From Slackia exigua ATCC 700122 (lineage in GTDB: Bacteria; Actinomycetota; Coriobacteriia; Coriobacteriales; Eggerthellaceae), in contig NZ_GG700630.1 of the NCBI RefSeq assembly GCF_000162875.1, forward strand, positions 946,015-1,010,014: 64,000 bases of DNA, written 5' to 3'. Below the pieces are notes generated by a model, which saw only the letters and a list, made by a program, of their open reading frames with translations, did not search any database and was not told the DNA's origin. This document shows, one piece after another, positions 29,332-36,087 of the stretch (positions within the stretch are counted from its first letter, which is position 1; every line of letters begins with the position of its first letter). Made by a program: the position numbers and the translations under genes.

Positions 29332-30333
29332 CTATCCGCCGATCTGCGACATCGTGCGTTCGGTGCCGACGCGGTCGTGATGATCGTCGGGCTTCATGCC
29401 CAGCGCGTTCAGGAACACGCGCCGGATGTCGTCGTCGGTCCCTTCGCGCACGGCCGCGCGCATATCGAACTCCACGTCGCTGAACAGGCAGGGACGGATC
29501 TTGCCGTCGGCCGTCATGCGCAGGCGGTTGCACGTGCTGCAGAAATGCTTCGACAGCGGCGAGATGACGCCCACGGTGCCGAGCGCGCCCGGAAACTCAT
29601 AGTAACGCGCCGGGCCCCAGCCCGTAGGCGCATGGGCGCAGGCCGCAACCAGCTCTTCCACGCCTTCCTCGCGCGCGCGGGCGTTGATGAGCCCGATGAC
29701 CTCCTCGCTCGGAACCACGTCATCCCGGCCCCAGCCCGTGCCGTCCGACCCGGCGCTTTCCCCCACCGGCATGTATTCGATGAAGCGCATGTGCAGCGGG
29801 CGATCGAAGGACATCCGCGCGAAGCCGTACAGATCCTGATCCAGGCTGCGCACGACGACCGAATTGATCTTCACCGGATCGAGCCCTGCCGCAAGGGCCG
29901 CGTCGATCCCCTCGAGCACGTCTTCCACGTTGCCGCGCCTCGTGATCGTGCGGAATTGCACCGGGTCGAGCGTATCGAGCGAGATGTTCACGCGGGAAAG
30001 GCCCGCGCGCGCGAGATCGTCCGCCATGAGCGGCAGCAACGCGCCGTTCGTCGTGAGCGCGATGCTTTCGATGCCTTCGGTCTTCTTCATGGCCGCGATC
30101 AGGTCGACGACGCCCTTGCGAACCAAAGGCTCGCCGCCTGTCAAACGGACATGGGATATGCCCATGCCGGCCGCGACGCTTACGATGCGCTCGATTTCCT
30201 CGAGCCTCAAGATGGCGTCATGCCCCAGCGAGCACACGCCTTCTTCGGGCATGCAGTAGATGCACCGGAAATTGCATCGATCCGTCAGCGATATCCGCAG
30301 GTAATCGATGACTCTGCCATGAGAGTCGACCAT
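29332..30333 (-). CDS. moaA: GTP 3',8-cyclase MoaA (radical SAM)
   Basis: Radical SAM enzyme that cyclises GTP to start Moco synthesis. The radical SAM cluster is CNFRCIYC and the C-terminal second cluster is CSTCNRLRMTADGKIRPCLF; a SAM-binding TGGEPLVR is present. The C-terminal GG (SQIGG) matches the catalytic di-glycine tail of MoaA. I place the start at ATG 30333 (MVDSHGRVIDYLRIS), as in homologues, rather than TTG at 30345. The protein has 333 residues. It follows modC by 22 bp, so uptake and synthesis genes are co-transcribed. Confidence 0.96.
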   Translation of the reverse strand: MVDSHGRVIDYLRISLTDRCNFRCIYCMPEEGVCSLGHDAILRLEEIERIVSVAAGMGISHVRLTGGEPLVRKGVVDLIAAMKKTEGIESIALTTNGALLPLMADDLARAGLSRVNISLDTLDPVQFRTITRRGNVEDVLEGIDAALAAGLDPVKINSVVVRSLDQDLYGFARMSFDRPLHMRFIEYMPVGESAGSDGTGWGRDDVVPSEEVIGLINARAREEGVEELVAACAHAPTGWGPARYYEFPGALGTVGVISPLSKHFCSTCNRLRMTADGKIRPCLFSDVEFDMRAAVREGTDDDIRRVFLNALGMKPDDHHDRVGTERTMSQIGG

Positions 30334-30355
30334 ATGCGCCCCCAACCCGCCGCCA

Positions 30356-31459
30356 TCATCGCGTGACGACGTATACGAACTCTTCAGGTATTTCTATCAG
30401 CAGCTCGTCGCCCTTGCAAGGCACATCGGCCTCGCATGTCGCCAATTTGTCTACCTTCCACTGGAGATGGGTCTGGGCGAACCGCTCGCTCTCGTCCGCC
30501 GCACCTGATGAGATCGGTGCGCCGTCCAGGAACGAGACCATGACCGTACGTTCGAAACGCGAATCGCTCGCACGGTCCACGCGTACGCGGAAGACATTGC
30601 GCCCCTCGTGCCGCGCGCGTCGGATGCGGAATGCGCGGACACCGAAAAATCGCACGTCATCAGGTACGTTCTGCGCGCAGCGGACCGTCACGCCGAACGA
30701 GGGGAGGAACACTTCGTGATCGCCTGCCTTTTGCGCCTCGGTCGTGTTCTTGCACCCCGAAAGGCGAATGGTCGCAAGGGTCTGCGGGTCGCTCACGATA
30801 TCGCGCTTCGGAGCGATTTCGCGAATATGCCCTTCCTCTACCACCGCGATGCGGTCGCAGAAGCGGAACGCCTCGTCGATATCGTGGCTCACGTACAGGA
30901 TGCTTCCCTCGAAAGATTCGAAGAGAGCAAGAAGATCCTGCTCGAGCTCGCTTTTCAGATGCGCGTCGAGCGCGGAGAACGGCTCGTCGAGCATCAGGAT
31001 GCCCGGCTGCGCGGCGATCATGCGCGCGAGGGCCACACGCTGCTGCTGGCCGCCCGACAGGCGGTAAGGAAAACGCTTCTCGAGCCCCTCGAGCGAAAAC
31101 CGCCTGATCTGCCGCGCAACTGCGGCGGCGCGGTCGGCTTCGCCCGCGTCGCGGCCGATGCCCGCCGCGATGTTGTCGGCCACCGTCAAGTGCGGGAACA
31201 GCTGGAAGCTCTGGAAGAGCAGCGCCGTCTTGCGCTTCTGCGGCGACAGGTCGATCCCTGCCGCGGAATCGAAGTAGGTCGTGCCGTTCACTTCGATGAT
31301 GCCCTCGTCAGGCTCCTCGACGCCGGCGATGCAGCGCAGCGTCATGGACTTGCCGCAGCCGCTCGCGCCGAGGAATCCGAGCGTCTCCGACTCGACCTCG
31401 AAAGCGACCTCGAGGTCGAACGAAGCGAGCTTCTTGCGGATATCGATCCTAAGACTCAC
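30356..31459 (-). CDS. modC: Molybdate ABC transporter ATP-binding protein
   Basis: ATPase of molybdate (or tungstate) import. The 367-residue protein has Walker A GASGCGKSM, signature RLSGGQQQRVALARM, Walker B LMLDEPFSALD and H-loop VSHD. The Walker A serine is followed by methionine in place of the usual T, a small oddity. The C-terminal third (from about residue 220) takes the place of the TOBE/Mop-like domain but is divergent. The start is GTG at 31459 with AAAGGGGCGG before it, overlapping the modB end by 11 bp. Confidence 0.9.
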   Translation of the reverse strand: MSLRIDIRKKLASFDLEVAFEVESETLGFLGASGCGKSMTLRCIAGVEEPDEGIIEVNGTTYFDSAAGIDLSPQKRKTALLFQSFQLFPHLTVADNIAAGIGRDAGEADRAAAVARQIRRFSLEGLEKRFPYRLSGGQQQRVALARMIAAQPGILMLDEPFSALDAHLKSELEQDLLALFESFEGSILYVSHDIDEAFRFCDRIAVVEEGHIREIAPKRDIVSDPQTLATIRLSGCKNTTEAQKAGDHEVFLPSFGVTVRCAQNVPDDVRFFGVRAFRIRRARHEGRNVFRVRVDRASDSRFERTVMVSFLDGAPISSGAADESERFAQTHLQWKVDKLATCEADVPCKGDELLIEIPEEFVYVVTR

Positions 31460-32975
31460 GTCCCGCCCCTTTCCGACGGTACGTCTGCGTATGCGACGAA
31501 TAGACATTGATGAAGAGGATAACCAGGAACGATATCAGGATCACGACGATGACCCAGAAAATCGCGACGTCGTTTCTGCCCGCCATCCAGTCGTAGTAGA
31601 TCGCGATCGGGATGGTCTGCGTGATGCCGACGTAGTTGCCGGCGAAGAAGAGCGTCGCGCCGAACTCGCCCATCGCGCGCGCGAATGCGAGCACGGTTCC
31701 TGCCGCAATGGAGGGCCAGGCCAAAGGAAGCATAAGGCGCAGGAAGATCTTCCCCTCGCCCCATCCGAGCGTTCGGGCCGCGTCCAGCATGTCGCCGTCC
31801 AGGTTCTCGAACGCGCCGCGCGCGGTGCGATACATCAGGGGGAAACCGACGACGATGCACGCGATGACGGCGGCCGGCCAGGTGAAGACCAGATCGATGC
31901 CGTGCGCGATGAACCAGCGGCCCACTGCGGTCGACGTGCCGAAGAAGAGCATGAGCAGAAAGCCGCAGACCGTCGGCGGAAGCACCATGGGAATCGTGAA
32001 CACCGTGTCGAAGATGCCCTTGAAACGGTCGGATACGCGCAGCGTCGCCCATGCGGCGAGCAGGCCTAGGAAGAAGATCACGATGACGGCCACGCCGGTC
32101 GTCTTAAGGGAAACCCAGAGCGGCGACCAGTCCAGATCGGCAAGGAATTGCTTGAGCGCGGCGAAGCCTTCGGCCTTCTGGGTCACGGCCACGTCGTTCG
32201 CATCGGTCAGGAACCCCGATTCCGCATACACGGCACCGGCGCTGCCATCCTGGGACCCCTCGAGGGTGCACGTCGCGTAGAAGCGCCCCTCCTCGCCTTC
32301 CACGGCGAAGCGATACGTGTAGTCGCCTGCGGACACGGACTCGCTCGACGTGAAGTAGAAGCGTCGGTCCGCACCGGCGAGCGTGGGACCGCCTTTCGAT
32401 GCCGCGTCGTCGAGCGCACGCAGCGTGACGAGGAATTCTTCCTGGAATACCGGATCGTTCACGTCGATGCCTAGATCGGATGCGACGTTTGCGGGAATGT
32501 AGACGATCGCGGACGTATCGGTCACGATGACGGAGAACGCGTCGGAACCGGCCATCGCATAGCGATACCCGAGGTAACGCCCATCGATATCGCGGTTCGT
32601 CCCCTTGTTCTGCCGCGAGAACGACGCTATGCCTTCGCGTGCGACGCTCATCACCGCTGCATCGGCCTCGGCGGAAACCGTGACCTGGCTGTCCCGTTCG
32701 AGGTTGGCCGCCGACGGACTCAGAAGGGCGCCCGACGCATCGCGCGGGGCGGCGGCGTCCGATGCCGGCGCCGCGCTCGCGTCCTCGTCCGCATAGGCAT
32801 GCGTCGGCACGCAGAGAAAGCCTGCCGCGAGGACCGACGCAAGCACGATCAGGATGGAGACGAAAAGGGGCGTGAGGATGCGCGGCCGCCCTACGCCGCA
32901 TACGGCGTCGCGGCATGGCGAGGCCGCCGGGCATCGCTTCGGCCCGGCTTCGATCCCTCTCCGCATGCGCGTCAT
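31449..32975 (-). CDS. modB: Molybdate ABC transporter permease with large extracytoplasmic domain
   Basis: 508-residue permease, about twice the normal ModB length. After a cytoplasmic N-terminus and a membrane helix (about residues 33-60, LTPLFVSILIVLASVLAAGF) comes a domain of about 220 residues with no membrane segment (about 60-280), then a standard ModB core with five helices and the EAA loop LDAARTLGWGEGKIFLRLML. The core motif ARAMGEFGATLFFAGN is typical of ModB. The inserted domain is not recognised. ATG at 32975 with AAGGGGGT just upstream is preferred to longer starts. Confidence 0.88.
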   Translation of the reverse strand: MTRMRRGIEAGPKRCPAASPCRDAVCGVGRPRILTPLFVSILIVLASVLAAGFLCVPTHAYADEDASAAPASDAAAPRDASGALLSPSAANLERDSQVTVSAEADAAVMSVAREGIASFSRQNKGTNRDIDGRYLGYRYAMAGSDAFSVIVTDTSAIVYIPANVASDLGIDVNDPVFQEEFLVTLRALDDAASKGGPTLAGADRRFYFTSSESVSAGDYTYRFAVEGEEGRFYATCTLEGSQDGSAGAVYAESGFLTDANDVAVTQKAEGFAALKQFLADLDWSPLWVSLKTTGVAVIVIFFLGLLAAWATLRVSDRFKGIFDTVFTIPMVLPPTVCGFLLMLFFGTSTAVGRWFIAHGIDLVFTWPAAVIACIVVGFPLMYRTARGAFENLDGDMLDAARTLGWGEGKIFLRLMLPLAWPSIAAGTVLAFARAMGEFGATLFFAGNYVGITQTIPIAIYYDWMAGRNDVAIFWVIVVILISFLVILFINVYSSHTQTYRRKGAGRES

Positions 32976-33095
32976 AGTACCCCCTTGAGAATAATCGGCC
33001 TTCATCTTAACGGACATAAGGCCTTCCCTGCTTGAAAAGAACGATTCGACCCATATTCCGGAAGGCAGGCTGCGCGCGATATGCTCCCGCGCATG

Positions 33096-33129
33096 AAAAG
33101 AGCCCCGCTCCGCGAAGGAGGCAGGGCTC
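33096..33129 (-). terminator. Terminator/attenuator between modA and modB
   Basis: On the minus strand a hairpin GAGCCCTGC / GCGGGGCTC (33121-33129 with 33100-33108, one mismatch) is followed by TTTTC. It sits just after the modA stop codon. Such a signal would allow more binding protein than permease to be made from one promoter. Confidence 0.7.
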
Positions 33130-33162
33130 GATCGAATCGGCATGCGCCGGCCGCAGGGCAGC

Positions 33163-34080
33163 CTACGCGGCCGCCAGCTCGAAGCCGTACTTCTGGAAGA
33201 CGGCCTGAGCGTCCGGATCGGTCATGCAGAAGTTCAGGAAATCCTGCGCGACCTGCGCGTTGGCAGAGTCTGACGTCACAGCTCCCGGATAGACGATGGC
33301 CTTGTGCATATCGGCCGGAACGGTGTAGATGGCTTTGATCCCGTCATAACGGTAGATATCGGAGGAGTACACGAAACCGAGCTGCACGTTGCCCGAGCTC
33401 ACGTATTCAGCCACGTCGCCGACCTTCTGCGCACCGGCGTTCACCTTGTCGGCGACCGATGCGTCCCACTCGTAGGACACCGTGCCGTCATCCGCCTGAG
33501 AAGACGTTGCCAGGCCGGCGGAGACGAGGGACTGCAGCGCGTACTTGCCGGCCGGAACCGCATTGGGCTCGCCGATGGCGAAGGAATCAACGGCATCGGT
33601 TCCGAGGTCCGCCAAATCGGCGACCTTGAGGTCGCTGTTCGTGGCGGCGGCGAGGACCAGATCGTTATTGAACATGTTCAGGCGCGTGGACGCGTCGATG
33701 GAGCCGTTCTTGTCCGCCTTGTCCATGGAGCTCGTCGATGCTGCGATGAAGATATCGGCATGGGCCTGCGTCTGCCCGTCGGTGCCGGCGAGCTTGCTCA
33801 CGAGCGTGCCCGAAGCTTCGAACTGAGTATCCGCGAAGGAAACCTCAGGATGCGCCTTGGTATAGAGCTCCTGAACTTCCGGCAGGGCCTTCTGCAGAGA
33901 ATTGGCTGCGAAGACATGCAGCTCGACGGGATCGGCCTTCGCAGCCATGTCCGCCGCCGAACCCTCGTCTGACGAGGACATCTGATCGCCATCGTTCGAT
34001 GATGAACACCCGACAAGCACGAACGATGCGATGAGCGCGCCTGCGAACGCTCCTGCGAGCAACGCCTTCCATTTCTTCAT
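33163..34080 (-). CDS. modA: Molybdate-binding lipoprotein ModA
   Basis: Extracytoplasmic substrate-binding protein of the importer. The 305-residue precursor has a lipoprotein signal with lipobox LVGC (C25), then a serine- and aspartate-rich spacer, then a ModA domain: ELHVFAANSLQKALPEV, FEASGTLVSKL, ADIFIAAS, and the closing YTVPADMHKAIVYPGAV and FLNFCMTDPDAQAVFQKYGF. It starts at ATG 34080 after AAAGGGGT. It is the first gene of mod-moa, with its own promoter at 34139-34167. Confidence 0.94.
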   Translation of the reverse strand: MKKWKALLAGAFAGALIASFVLVGCSSSNDGDQMSSSDEGSAADMAAKADPVELHVFAANSLQKALPEVQELYTKAHPEVSFADTQFEASGTLVSKLAGTDGQTQAHADIFIAASTSSMDKADKNGSIDASTRLNMFNNDLVLAAATNSDLKVADLADLGTDAVDSFAIGEPNAVPAGKYALQSLVSAGLATSSQADDGTVSYEWDASVADKVNAGAQKVGDVAEYVSSGNVQLGFVYSSDIYRYDGIKAIYTVPADMHKAIVYPGAVTSDSANAQVAQDFLNFCMTDPDAQAVFQKYGFELAAA

Positions 34081-34138
34081 GGCATACCCCTTTGCTTCCC
34101 TTCTTGCATGGAACGGCCATATCGGCCGCGTGACGGTA

Positions 34139-34167
34139 ATAATATTCTCATGCATGCATATTATCAA
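34139..34167 (-). promoter_or_regulatory. modA promoter with ModE-type operator
   Basis: On the minus strand TTGATA (34162-34167), a 17-bp spacer and TATTAT (34139-34144) form a near-consensus sigma-70-type promoter. An inverted repeat ATAATA (34139-34144) and TATTAT (34159-34164) covers the -10 and reaches the -35, so a protein bound here would block RNA polymerase. The AT-rich half-sites resemble ModE operators. The region lies between divergent modA and modE; a further GAATATTC palindrome follows at 34172-34179. Confidence 0.65.
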
Positions 34168-34360
34168 TCAAGAATATTCTTCTGGCTTCACAGGCGGACA
34201 TACGGACGTGCCCGCGTCCCGTATTCCAGACAGCCGTGCGGTCGCGCTCTCGTCCGACACGGCCGACGCCGCATGCTCTATACTTATCCATTATTGGAGA
34301 ATACCGGTTCAGCGTCCGCGCGACGACCTGATGCGCACGGTCGCAAAGGAGGGCCTTTCC

Positions 34361-34702
34361 ATGAACGAACTTTCGAATCTCAAGCCGGTCATCAGGCTCA
34401 GCATCGGCACCGAAGCCGAACCGCTGGCATTCGGCCAGGGCGTCGCCGCCCTCTGTCGCGGCGTCAGGGAATCCGGCTCGCTCAATAAAGCCGCCAAATC
34501 GATGGGCATGGCATACAGCAAGGCGTGGCGCATCATGAAATCAGCCGAAACGAACCTCGGCTTCGACCTGCTTTTCCGTGCCGGAGCCCATGGCTCGACG
34601 CTCACGCGCGAAGGCGAGAACCTCCTCGCGGCCTATGACGGCCTGCTCGAGCAGACCCGAGATTTCGCACGGAAGGCCCTGGAAGAAACCGTTCGGGACT
34701 AG
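34361..34702 (+). CDS. modE: ModE-type DNA-binding regulator without molybdate-binding domain
   Basis: 113-residue LysR-like winged helix protein of the ModE N-terminal family: ESGSLNKAAKSMGMAYSKAW is the recognition region and LFRAGAHGSTLTREGE the wing. The C-terminal molybdate-binding (Mop/TOBE) domains of classical ModE are missing, so it should sense molybdate by another route, or not at all. AAAGGAGG lies 8 bp before the ATG at 34361. TATACT at 34279-34284 may be its -10. It diverges from modA across the operator region. Confidence 0.88.
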   Translation: MNELSNLKPVIRLSIGTEAEPLAFGQGVAALCRGVRESGSLNKAAKSMGMAYSKAWRIMKSAETNLGFDLLFRAGAHGSTLTREGENLLAAYDGLLEQTRDFARKALEETVRD

Positions 34703-34777: not shown

Positions 34778-35962
34778 CTAGCCCCTGTCCCCATCGCCCA
34801 AGATGGACGATTCGATATGCGCGAGCTCGTCCGGCGTGTTCACATTGATGAAGCAGCCGCCGTCCGGCGCGGCCGCACGCGTTTCCTCGCGGCTGTAGAA
34901 CCGCGCGTCGAGACGGTCGAACACATCCACCATGCGCACGCTTCCATGCTCGACGATCTCGCGCGTCGCATCGAGGCATGCATCCTTTCGATAGACGGCA
35001 TGGAACGGCTCGAGCCCGAAACGCGTCACGGGAACCACCGCATCCTTGCGTTCGGCGTGAAGCGTCGCCGCCTCGGCGATGATGAGCGACGGCGATGCGT
35101 AGACCATGTCGCACGCTACCAAGGCGACGAGCGGCGTTCGCGCCGCAGCGATAGCCGTGCAGAATCCGCGCAGCGCACCGCGTTCCTTATAGACGTCGCT
35201 CGCGAGACGGAGCGGCCGTCCGAAATCGATATCATGCAGGAACGCGAGCCGGTCGGGTTCATTCGTCGTCACGACGATCTCGTCCGCAGCAGGCGCGATG
35301 CGATGGAGGATGCGCGTGATCATGGGTTCGCCCAAAAAGCCCACGAGCGCCTTGCTCTGCCCCATGCGGCGCGATTCGCCGCCCGCCTGCACCACCACGG
35401 TGAGCTTCGGACGGGCATACACGTTCTCGAGGTACGTCGCGATGGCGTCGATATCTTCGAACCCGAACGACGGAATGCCGTGCGCCGCCGAGACCGCCGA
35501 GACGTCAGGCATGTCGGTGACGACGGCTTGGGGCGCGACGCCGCCGATCGTTGCATCGATGCAGAACTCGCGGGCCGCCGCGACGTCCCGATCGCTCGCG
35601 GCGCGGAACAGCTCGATGACGTCCAGGCCGCTCTTGCGGTAGCCCTCCACGATGATCAGATCGTGATCGGGCATGCACCTGACGATCTCGGAGCATTCGA
35701 GATCGCGATCGAGGCTGGTCACGCGTGCGATCTTACCTGAGGACACGATGACGGAGTCCACGGATCCGGCGGCACGGTGCCGAAACGAATCCTTGCCGGG
35801 GATGTCGATGTCGAAATCGGGGTGCCCATGATGCTTGATCGTGCCGATGTTCAGCCCGCGCGAGACGAGTTCGGCGATGACCTTCTCGAGCAGCGTCGTC
35901 TTGCCTGAATTATGCCGTCCGACGAACGAAACCGCCGGTGACGGCCGATGCAGCTCCCGCAT
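34778..35962 (-). CDS. MobB-MobA fusion, Moco guanylyltransferase
   Basis: 394 residues combining two Moco proteins. Residues 1-170 are MobB, a GTPase-like partner with Walker A GRHNSGKTT (15-23), TIKHHGH and a DLIIVEGYRKSG segment. Residues from about 186 are MobA, which attaches GMP to Moco to make the guanine dinucleotide form: VVQAGGESRRMGQSKALV, ACDMVYASPSL and FINVNTPDE. It supplies the bis-MGD cofactor used by the DMSO-reductase-family enzyme at 25860. The start at 35962 has AAAGGGGGA upstream. Confidence 0.93.
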   Translation of the reverse strand: MRELHRPSPAVSFVGRHNSGKTTLLEKVIAELVSRGLNIGTIKHHGHPDFDIDIPGKDSFRHRAAGSVDSVIVSSGKIARVTSLDRDLECSEIVRCMPDHDLIIVEGYRKSGLDVIELFRAASDRDVAAAREFCIDATIGGVAPQAVVTDMPDVSAVSAAHGIPSFGFEDIDAIATYLENVYARPKLTVVVQAGGESRRMGQSKALVGFLGEPMITRILHRIAPAADEIVVTTNEPDRLAFLHDIDFGRPLRLASDVYKERGALRGFCTAIAAARTPLVALVACDMVYASPSLIIAEAATLHAERKDAVVPVTRFGLEPFHAVYRKDACLDATREIVEHGSVRMVDVFDRLDARFYSREETRAAAPDGGCFINVNTPDELAHIESSILGDGDRG

Positions 35963-36087
35963 GAATCCCCCTTTGGATATGCCGAACGCAGCGCGCATCC
36001 GAATGCGTCGACGCGACGCGGGCGCTGGATGCCACGCATGCAGGGAATCGCATCATACTCGAAGAATCCGTGCCTGCGAAGCGCGGC

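Follow-up and report, generated by a model that had tools for sequence, protein, structure and literature searches.

A short ModE-type protein and a palindromic candidate operator at the modA promoter of Slackia exigua and its relatives

In Escherichia coli, modABC is under ModE control (PMC11980592, accessible part). The mod locus of Slackia exigua, a member of the gut and oral family Eggerthellaceae, raises the question of how a ModE-type protein of only 113 residues might act on the modA promoter and from where a metal signal would reach it. We analyzed the locus in a 64-kb stretch of the 2.1-Mb genome, here called the window, and compared it with related genomes.

The short ModE protein and its gene neighborhood

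In the window, modA is followed by modB, modC, and moaA, while modE lies opposite modA and is convergent with a mobB-mobA fusion gene (Table 1). ModB has about 340 residues ahead of its permease domain, including a signal-like stretch seen by eye, and the modB products of relatives share 44 to 68% identity in the alignment.

To the 113-residue ModE, Pfam assigned HTH_1 as the sole domain, and the best NCBIfam model was the ModE domain TIGR00637 at 35.5 bits, under its cut-off of 98.5. Tandem C-terminal Mop/TOBE domains were absent, the TOBE matches of the same genome being located elsewhere. An AlphaFold2 model built from 37 sequences (pLDDT 94.3) revealed a winged helix with a 30-residue helix at the end, and the best four of 1000 PDB chains aligned to it were all ModE (1b9n, 1b9m, 1o7l, and 2ijl; Z 13.3–14.4), with the next at 10.2. 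By sequence, the profile scored a LysR chain (2.1e-9) about as well as the ModE 2ijl (3.2e-9). The protein thus corresponds to the DNA-binding part of ModE, not to a complete ModE, as the first-pass annotation had recognized in stating that it ends after the DNA-binding domain, and its own Mop domains are therefore ruled out as a sensing route. Both features of a stand-alone ModE domain, a ModE fold by itself and a palindrome at mod promoters, were found.

The short ModE is not peculiar to this genome. A profile search gave a ModE match at E 0.001 in 103 of 120 genomes; 92 of these were at E 1e-15 or better, six were at 1e-9 to 1e-12 or fragmentary, and five were weak LysR-like matches. Among 80 named modE loci (L236–L315), a same-strand gene of one family precedes modE in 71, within 200 bp in 68, and the one representative of this gene that was identified is a threonine synthase (TIGR00260, 248.2 bits). 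Only eight of the 80 loci have modA within the fetched flanks. Because modE seldom adjoins modA outside Slackia while the palindrome described below stays at modA, the pairing of ModE with this operator there rests on co-occurrence.

Table 1. Features of the mod locus, predicted target sites, and related loci. Plain positions refer to the window; positions with a prefix refer to the named contig or locus.
Feature	Position	Strand	Evidence
moaA, molybdenum cofactor biosynthesis	29332-30345	-	TIGR02666, 354.6 bits
modC, ATPase; C-terminal domain without Pfam TOBE match	30356-31507	-	Pfam, NCBIfam, structure model
modB, molybdate permease with long N-terminal extension	31449-33143	-	TIGR02141 at residues 343-549 of 564
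modA, molybdate-binding protein	33163-34080	-	TIGR01256, 120.8 bits (cut-off 62.5)
modA -10, TATTAT	34139-34144	-	promoter scan; offset +20 in operator
Primary operator-like palindrome, ATAATATTCTCATGCATGCATATTAT	34139-34164	strand-neutral	25.0 bits by family motif; best place in 64 kb
Second palindrome, overlapping the primary	34155-34180	strand-neutral	18.5 bits; 16 bp from primary
modA -35, TTGATA	34162-34167	-	promoter scan; 25/74 sites of relatives have TTGACA (at most 1 mismatch) at this offset, -3
modE, stand-alone ModE-type DNA-binding protein	34361-34702	+	113-codon ORF, 113 aa
mobB-mobA fusion	34778-35998	-	PF03205 and PF12804
Two-Mop molbindin, 140 aa	G000:C2:332649-333050		TIGR00638, 142.3 bits
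Molbindin/TaoR-like intergenic site			23.5 bits
TaoR-like gene (HTH_17 and PBP_like)	L037:7280-8242		divergent from molbindin
Site at second modA-modB set			22.3 bits; TIGR01256, 88.9 bits
Site between MolA-like binding protein and FecCD permease			23.6 bits; 3psa (HI_1472), E 1.5e-21
Site upstream of another FecCD permease			19.3 bits
Site upstream of ahpC, about 275 bp away	L098:1497-1522		30.2 bits, strongest copy scored in the S. exigua genome
Site in L099			20.6 bits; no evident Mo link
Site in L103			19.4 bits; no evident Mo link
ModE-type domain fused to MobA/MocA-like nucleotidyltransferase, family f4	L333:531-1511, L334:611-1813, L335:546-1496, L336:496-1455, L337:500-1510		

A palindrome in register with the modA promoter

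A promoter scan of positions 34060 to 34380 returned one sigma-70-like site (0.3 on average in shuffles), which lies on the minus strand, matches at 10 of 12 positions, and has a 17-nt spacer between TTGATA and TATTAT (34167 to 34139). It bears out the near-consensus modA promoter of the first-pass annotation. The inverted repeat that it had placed over the -10 and -35 elements is also present and above chance, with arms at 34138 to 34148 and 34171 to 34181 that are 91% complementary and an overlapping palindrome in 34170 to 34181. On closer definition it is not a single symmetric repeat: two 26-bp sites overlap there, offset from each other by 16 bp.

These sites were defined with a motif derived from 92 modA upstream sequences of 91 genomes, of which 64, from the family, served for training and 28, from other families, were held out. 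On the training sequences, an EM search constrained to palindromes and started from 60 random seeds converged in its best four runs on one palindrome, a.aTTATTCTcatatgAGAATAAt.t, of about 21 bits, the next two runs giving a shifted variant; we write the family motif as aTTATTCT-N6-AGAATAAt. At the 1% shuffle threshold of 12.56 bits (the 99% quantile of shuffled maxima), 55 of the 64 training and 22 of the 28 held-out modA upstream sequences scored above it. Two sites of at least 19 bits occurred in 72 named loci lacking modA (0.83 Mb) against 13 in eight loci with modA, and a control matrix read backward gave no site of at least 19 bits in the same 72 loci. A literature search, conducted mostly outside subscription journals, found neither this palindrome nor any ModE of the Coriobacteriia described.

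Within the window, the best place unrelated to the modA promoter scored 9.5 bits. The only window sites of at least 15 bits are the two at modA, and autoregulation of modE was accordingly dismissed; moaA in the window likewise has no site of at least 15 bits upstream, while the moaA genes of relatives have a motif site in four of eight Slackia loci. One Slackia genome carries an extra unannotated stretch of about 1 kb between modA and modE (L041:1133-2399) with three motif sites of 32.3, 29.0, and 24.9 bits.

The placement of the palindrome relative to promoter elements was compared over 74 sites. TTGACA, with at most one mismatch, starts 3 bp before the 26-mer in 25 of them, the next commonest offset accounting for 9 sites, and the window promoter shares this position with its relatives. 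TATAAT, with at most one mismatch, lies at offset +20 in 10 of the 74 sites and at +18 in 44, where it falls inside the motif's own AATAAT. Promoters with at least 9 of 12 matches were found at 56 of the 74 sites, 27 such matches being at offset -3, in a scan of a 96-bp stretch that had no shuffled control. Secondary places of at least 10 bits recurred 27 times at 16 bp, in part through self-overlap of the motif, and half of the secondary sites more than 26 bp away (21 of 42) lie at 32 to 33 bp. The register with the -35 and -10 elements, here as in many relatives, suggests repression, and the tandem sites suggest that more than one dimer may bind.

The palindrome co-occurs with the short ModE. 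A site of at least 15 bits was present at modA in 74 of 85 genomes with the short ModE and in none of five without it (Fisher 1e-4), at a threshold picked after the scores were known and with ModE-less genomes (G072, G079, G081, G086, and G119) that all lie outside the family. At 12.56 bits the counts were 76 of 85 and two of five (G079, 12.7 bits; G119, 14.9 bits; p 0.016), and at 18 bits they were 66 of 85 and none of five (p 0.001). The fairer comparison is within the held-out families, where 20 of 23 genomes with ModE and none of the five without it reached 15 bits (p 6e-4); at 12.56 bits the numbers were 20 of 23 and two of five (p 0.05). Since three of the five ModE-less genomes are only 78 to 85% complete, ModE is perhaps missing from some of these assemblies. 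Eleven of the 85 genomes with the short ModE scored below 15 bits at modA, and three further ModE-less genomes with a distant modA scored 0.1, 0.1, and 8.3 bits.

Taken together, the domain content, the palindrome, its promoter register, its conservation, and its co-occurrence with the short ModE are observed in these genomes. We propose that the short ModE probably binds the palindrome as a dimer and represses modA, a model to which, as a whole, we assign a probability of about 0.68. A ModE dimer would occupy aTTATTCT-N6-AGAATAAt where it overlaps the modA -35 and -10 elements, and the bound protein would block RNA polymerase and so shut off molybdate uptake. In S. exigua the second modAB set, the MolA-like transporter, and the molbindin would perhaps be shut off as well. 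Three elements of this model are inferences: ModE as the binding protein, repression as its effect, and delivery of the metal signal by a separate molecule, for which a stand-alone Mop protein could be an optional source at most.

Further predicted sites and other candidate binders

Genome-wide, places with at most two mismatches to TATTCT-N6-AGAATA were rescored, giving eight loci of at least 19 bits, modA among them (Table 1). The sites at ahpC, L099, and L103 have no evident link to molybdenum, and about five sites are expected by chance from the background of the 72 loci without modA; some of the eight loci may therefore be chance. The binding protein beside one FecCD permease resembles HI_1472, which we take to be MolA. 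MolA-like homologues were found in 10 of 72 genomes. Among those with ModE, the close orthologues of G078 (25.2 and 22.2 bits) and G087 (19.3 bits) have a site, that of G009 has a weak one (13.1 bits), and the distant homologues of G020, G029, and G030 (33–38% identity) have none, all scoring below 9 bits. The homologues of the ModE-less G072, G081, and G096, also distant, have no site either (at most 2.5 bits). A variant palindrome, TATCCT-N6-AGGATA, stands directly before a FecCD permease gene at L107:1497-1522.

For the molbindin, a site of at least 19 bits was found in one of 10 loci, L067, which has sites between the TaoR-like gene and the molbindin and before modA. In L080, a locus found through the motif itself, the site lies between the molbindin and a second-type modA, and the molbindin neighborhoods of G030 and G096 have no motif site.

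These additional targets bear on whether another regulator, either a TaoR-like protein combining a helix-turn-helix with a PBP domain or a protein of the Fur/PerR type, binds the palindrome with ModE a bystander. The TaoR-like gene and the two-Mop molbindin point away from each other and share an intergenic motif site, and sites at FecCD-type transporters and at ahpC would speak for another regulator as well. The distribution argues against both: of 59 genomes lacking a strong PBP_like match, 52 carry the motif at modA, and it is absent at modA in G072 and G081 despite such a match. Strong PBP_like proteins have no positive link with a modA site of at least 15 bits (22 of 31 genomes with them, 52 of 59 without). 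A TaoR-like binder was judged unlikely from this co-occurrence. The ahpC site is gone in all six Slackia orthologues (maximum 8.4 bits), unlike the expectation for a PerR operator, and a Fur/PerR operator was likewise judged unlikely because the site is not conserved. Overall, we regard a different binder as very improbable.

Candidate routes for the metal signal and comparison with known systems

If the short ModE is the binder, its signal would have to come from elsewhere, as the first-pass annotation held when it named RNA elements or a partner protein. The part of that claim resting on the missing Mop domains stands; the RNA part found no backing, as no Rfam family reached its gathering score anywhere in the window, and an RNA element as sensor was set aside. 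Two sub-threshold Rfam matches lie in 28 to 37 kb.

The suggested search for a separate Mop protein did bring one to light. About 0.65 Mb from modE, the S. exigua genome encodes a stand-alone molbindin with two Mop domains and no DNA-binding domain, matched by TIGR00638 in two stretches. It matches Azotobacter ModG (1h9j) over its full length (E 6e-27) and the C-terminal half of E. coli ModE (1h9r, E 1.2e-6). In a split version of E. coli ModE, the molybdate-loaded molbindin would dock on ModE and drive operator binding. The presence of such a ModG-like and ModE-C-terminus-like protein, the motif site in its upstream region, its place in one relative (G036, locus L303) between modC and moaA, where mobA and modE are nearby, and in another (G046) beside modA, and its occurrence in 49 of 98 genomes with ModE against five of 22 without (p 0.03) are all in keeping with this. 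On the other hand, 30 of the 74 genomes with the short ModE and the operator, six Slackia among them, lack any TOBE match that exceeds the family cut-off (one of the 30, G028, has a weak match, E 0.008), and a two-Mop molbindin is for this reason not a required partner. Seven of 12 genomes of the genus Slackia gave no TOBE match, and stand-alone TOBE proteins showed no positive link with a modA site of at least 15 bits (38 of 49 genomes with them, 36 of 41 without). A storage role, described for such TOBE proteins in the accessible part of PMC11980592, would also suffice. Of the refuting observation named in the first-pass annotation, a stand-alone molbindin that pairs with ModE, the molbindin thus exists and has a motif site upstream, and the pairing would be a supposition. 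We rejected an obligate molbindin partner as the general mechanism and kept it as an option for S. exigua, where we consider the docking scheme improbable.

A source of signal that needs no Mop domains is suggested by one family of the same order (f4), in which a ModE-like match occurs in five of 10 genomes, fused in every case to a MobA/MocA-like NTP transferase domain (Table 1); the three fusions scanned with NCBIfam were MocA-like, with TIGR00637 at 51 to 58 bits. These fusions make cofactor-assembly enzymes a possible signal source, and the short ModE might accordingly read the state of cofactor assembly, not molybdate, through a separate MobA/MocA-type nucleotidyltransferase. We count in favor of this that modE adjoins the mobB-mobA fusion gene in the window. 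Against it, the palindrome is absent at modA of two f4 genomes that have the ModE-MocA fusion (G083, -11.9 bits; G074, -8.5 bits), and the fusion protein, if it acts there, therefore uses another site. We hold this reading to be quite unlikely.

The short ModE could also be a constant repressor with no metal sensing, the feedback being exerted on the transporter through the C-terminal domain of ModC. Trans-inhibition of this kind is exemplified by Methanosarcina ModBC. The ligand domain is absent from ModE both in Pfam and in the structure model, and ModC has a C-terminal part that is shared across eight sequences as a conserved stretch and modeled with high confidence (blocks 240–370 mostly 81–94). 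Over its whole length, the ModC model aligns with ABC ATPases bearing a regulatory domain, such as Methanosarcina acetivorans ModC 3d31 (Z 12.1, rmsd 12.1, 242 aligned), with a poor fit between domains. Yet overall confidence in the ModC model is moderate (pLDDT 70.9), the inter-domain fit is poor, and an operator kept in promoter register across an order is hardly explained by a constant repressor. We view constant repression as unlikely, though deserving of consideration, and retain repression of modA by a short ModE that receives its metal signal from a separate molecule as the preferred reading.

The short-ModE situation recurs across an order of Actinobacteria, and the sharp candidate operator offers a ready reporter. 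With the palindrome recurring in related genomes, metal sensing by a ModE that lacks a molybdate domain is now testable. Genetic tools have been reported for Eggerthella lenta (PMC9734109, accessible part), and the sensing question can therefore be put to experiment. Members of the Eggerthellaceae produce metalloenzymes for dietary polyphenols, according to the accessible parts of PMC11585353 (Gordonibacter) and PMC12771579 (molybdenum-dependent enzymes).

Compared with E. coli ModE (1b9m, 1b9n, and 1o7l), the Slackia protein has the same winged-helix fold with a long C-terminal helix (Z 14.3–14.4), while the E. coli protein is more than twice as long and has two Mop domains where the Slackia protein has none. 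The Slackia palindrome shares the 6-N6-6 half-site geometry of the E. coli ModE box (consensus in the accessible part of PMC545781), but its half-sites, TATTCT/AGAATA, differ from the TATATA of TATATA-N6-TATATA, so that the spacing is the same and the E. coli type of operator is not. ModE proteins bearing either a single TOBE domain or two, together with TaoR-like proteins, are described in gut microbes (PMC11980592, accessible part). The Slackia two-Mop protein matches molbindins of the ModG/Tub group (1h9j; 9beb) in that it aligns with ModG over its full length, and it differs in being a separately encoded protein.

Closer parallels exist for the short ModE itself. In the accessible part of Rodionov et al. 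2004 (PMC545781), a single-domain ModE is reported in two Desulfovibrio species and in D. psychrophila, its sensing mechanism is called not clear, and a new palindrome, CGGTCACG-N14-CGTGACCG, is predicted upstream of the Desulfovibrio mod operons. The Slackia protein is like these in consisting of the ModE DNA-binding domain alone, while the Desulfovibrio palindrome given there differs from that of Slackia, and the phage-integrase/MOP chimera of the Desulfovibrio cluster described in the same accessible part was not seen among the mod genes here. The putative ModE of Agrobacterium tumefaciens (2ijl) is likewise a stand-alone ModE domain, of 135 aa (Z 13.3; E 9.2e-6 by sequence), although from another phylum. 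A stand-alone ModE with unexplained sensing is thus already known from Desulfovibrio and Agrobacterium, and Eggerthellaceae are a further lineage with an operator of their own.
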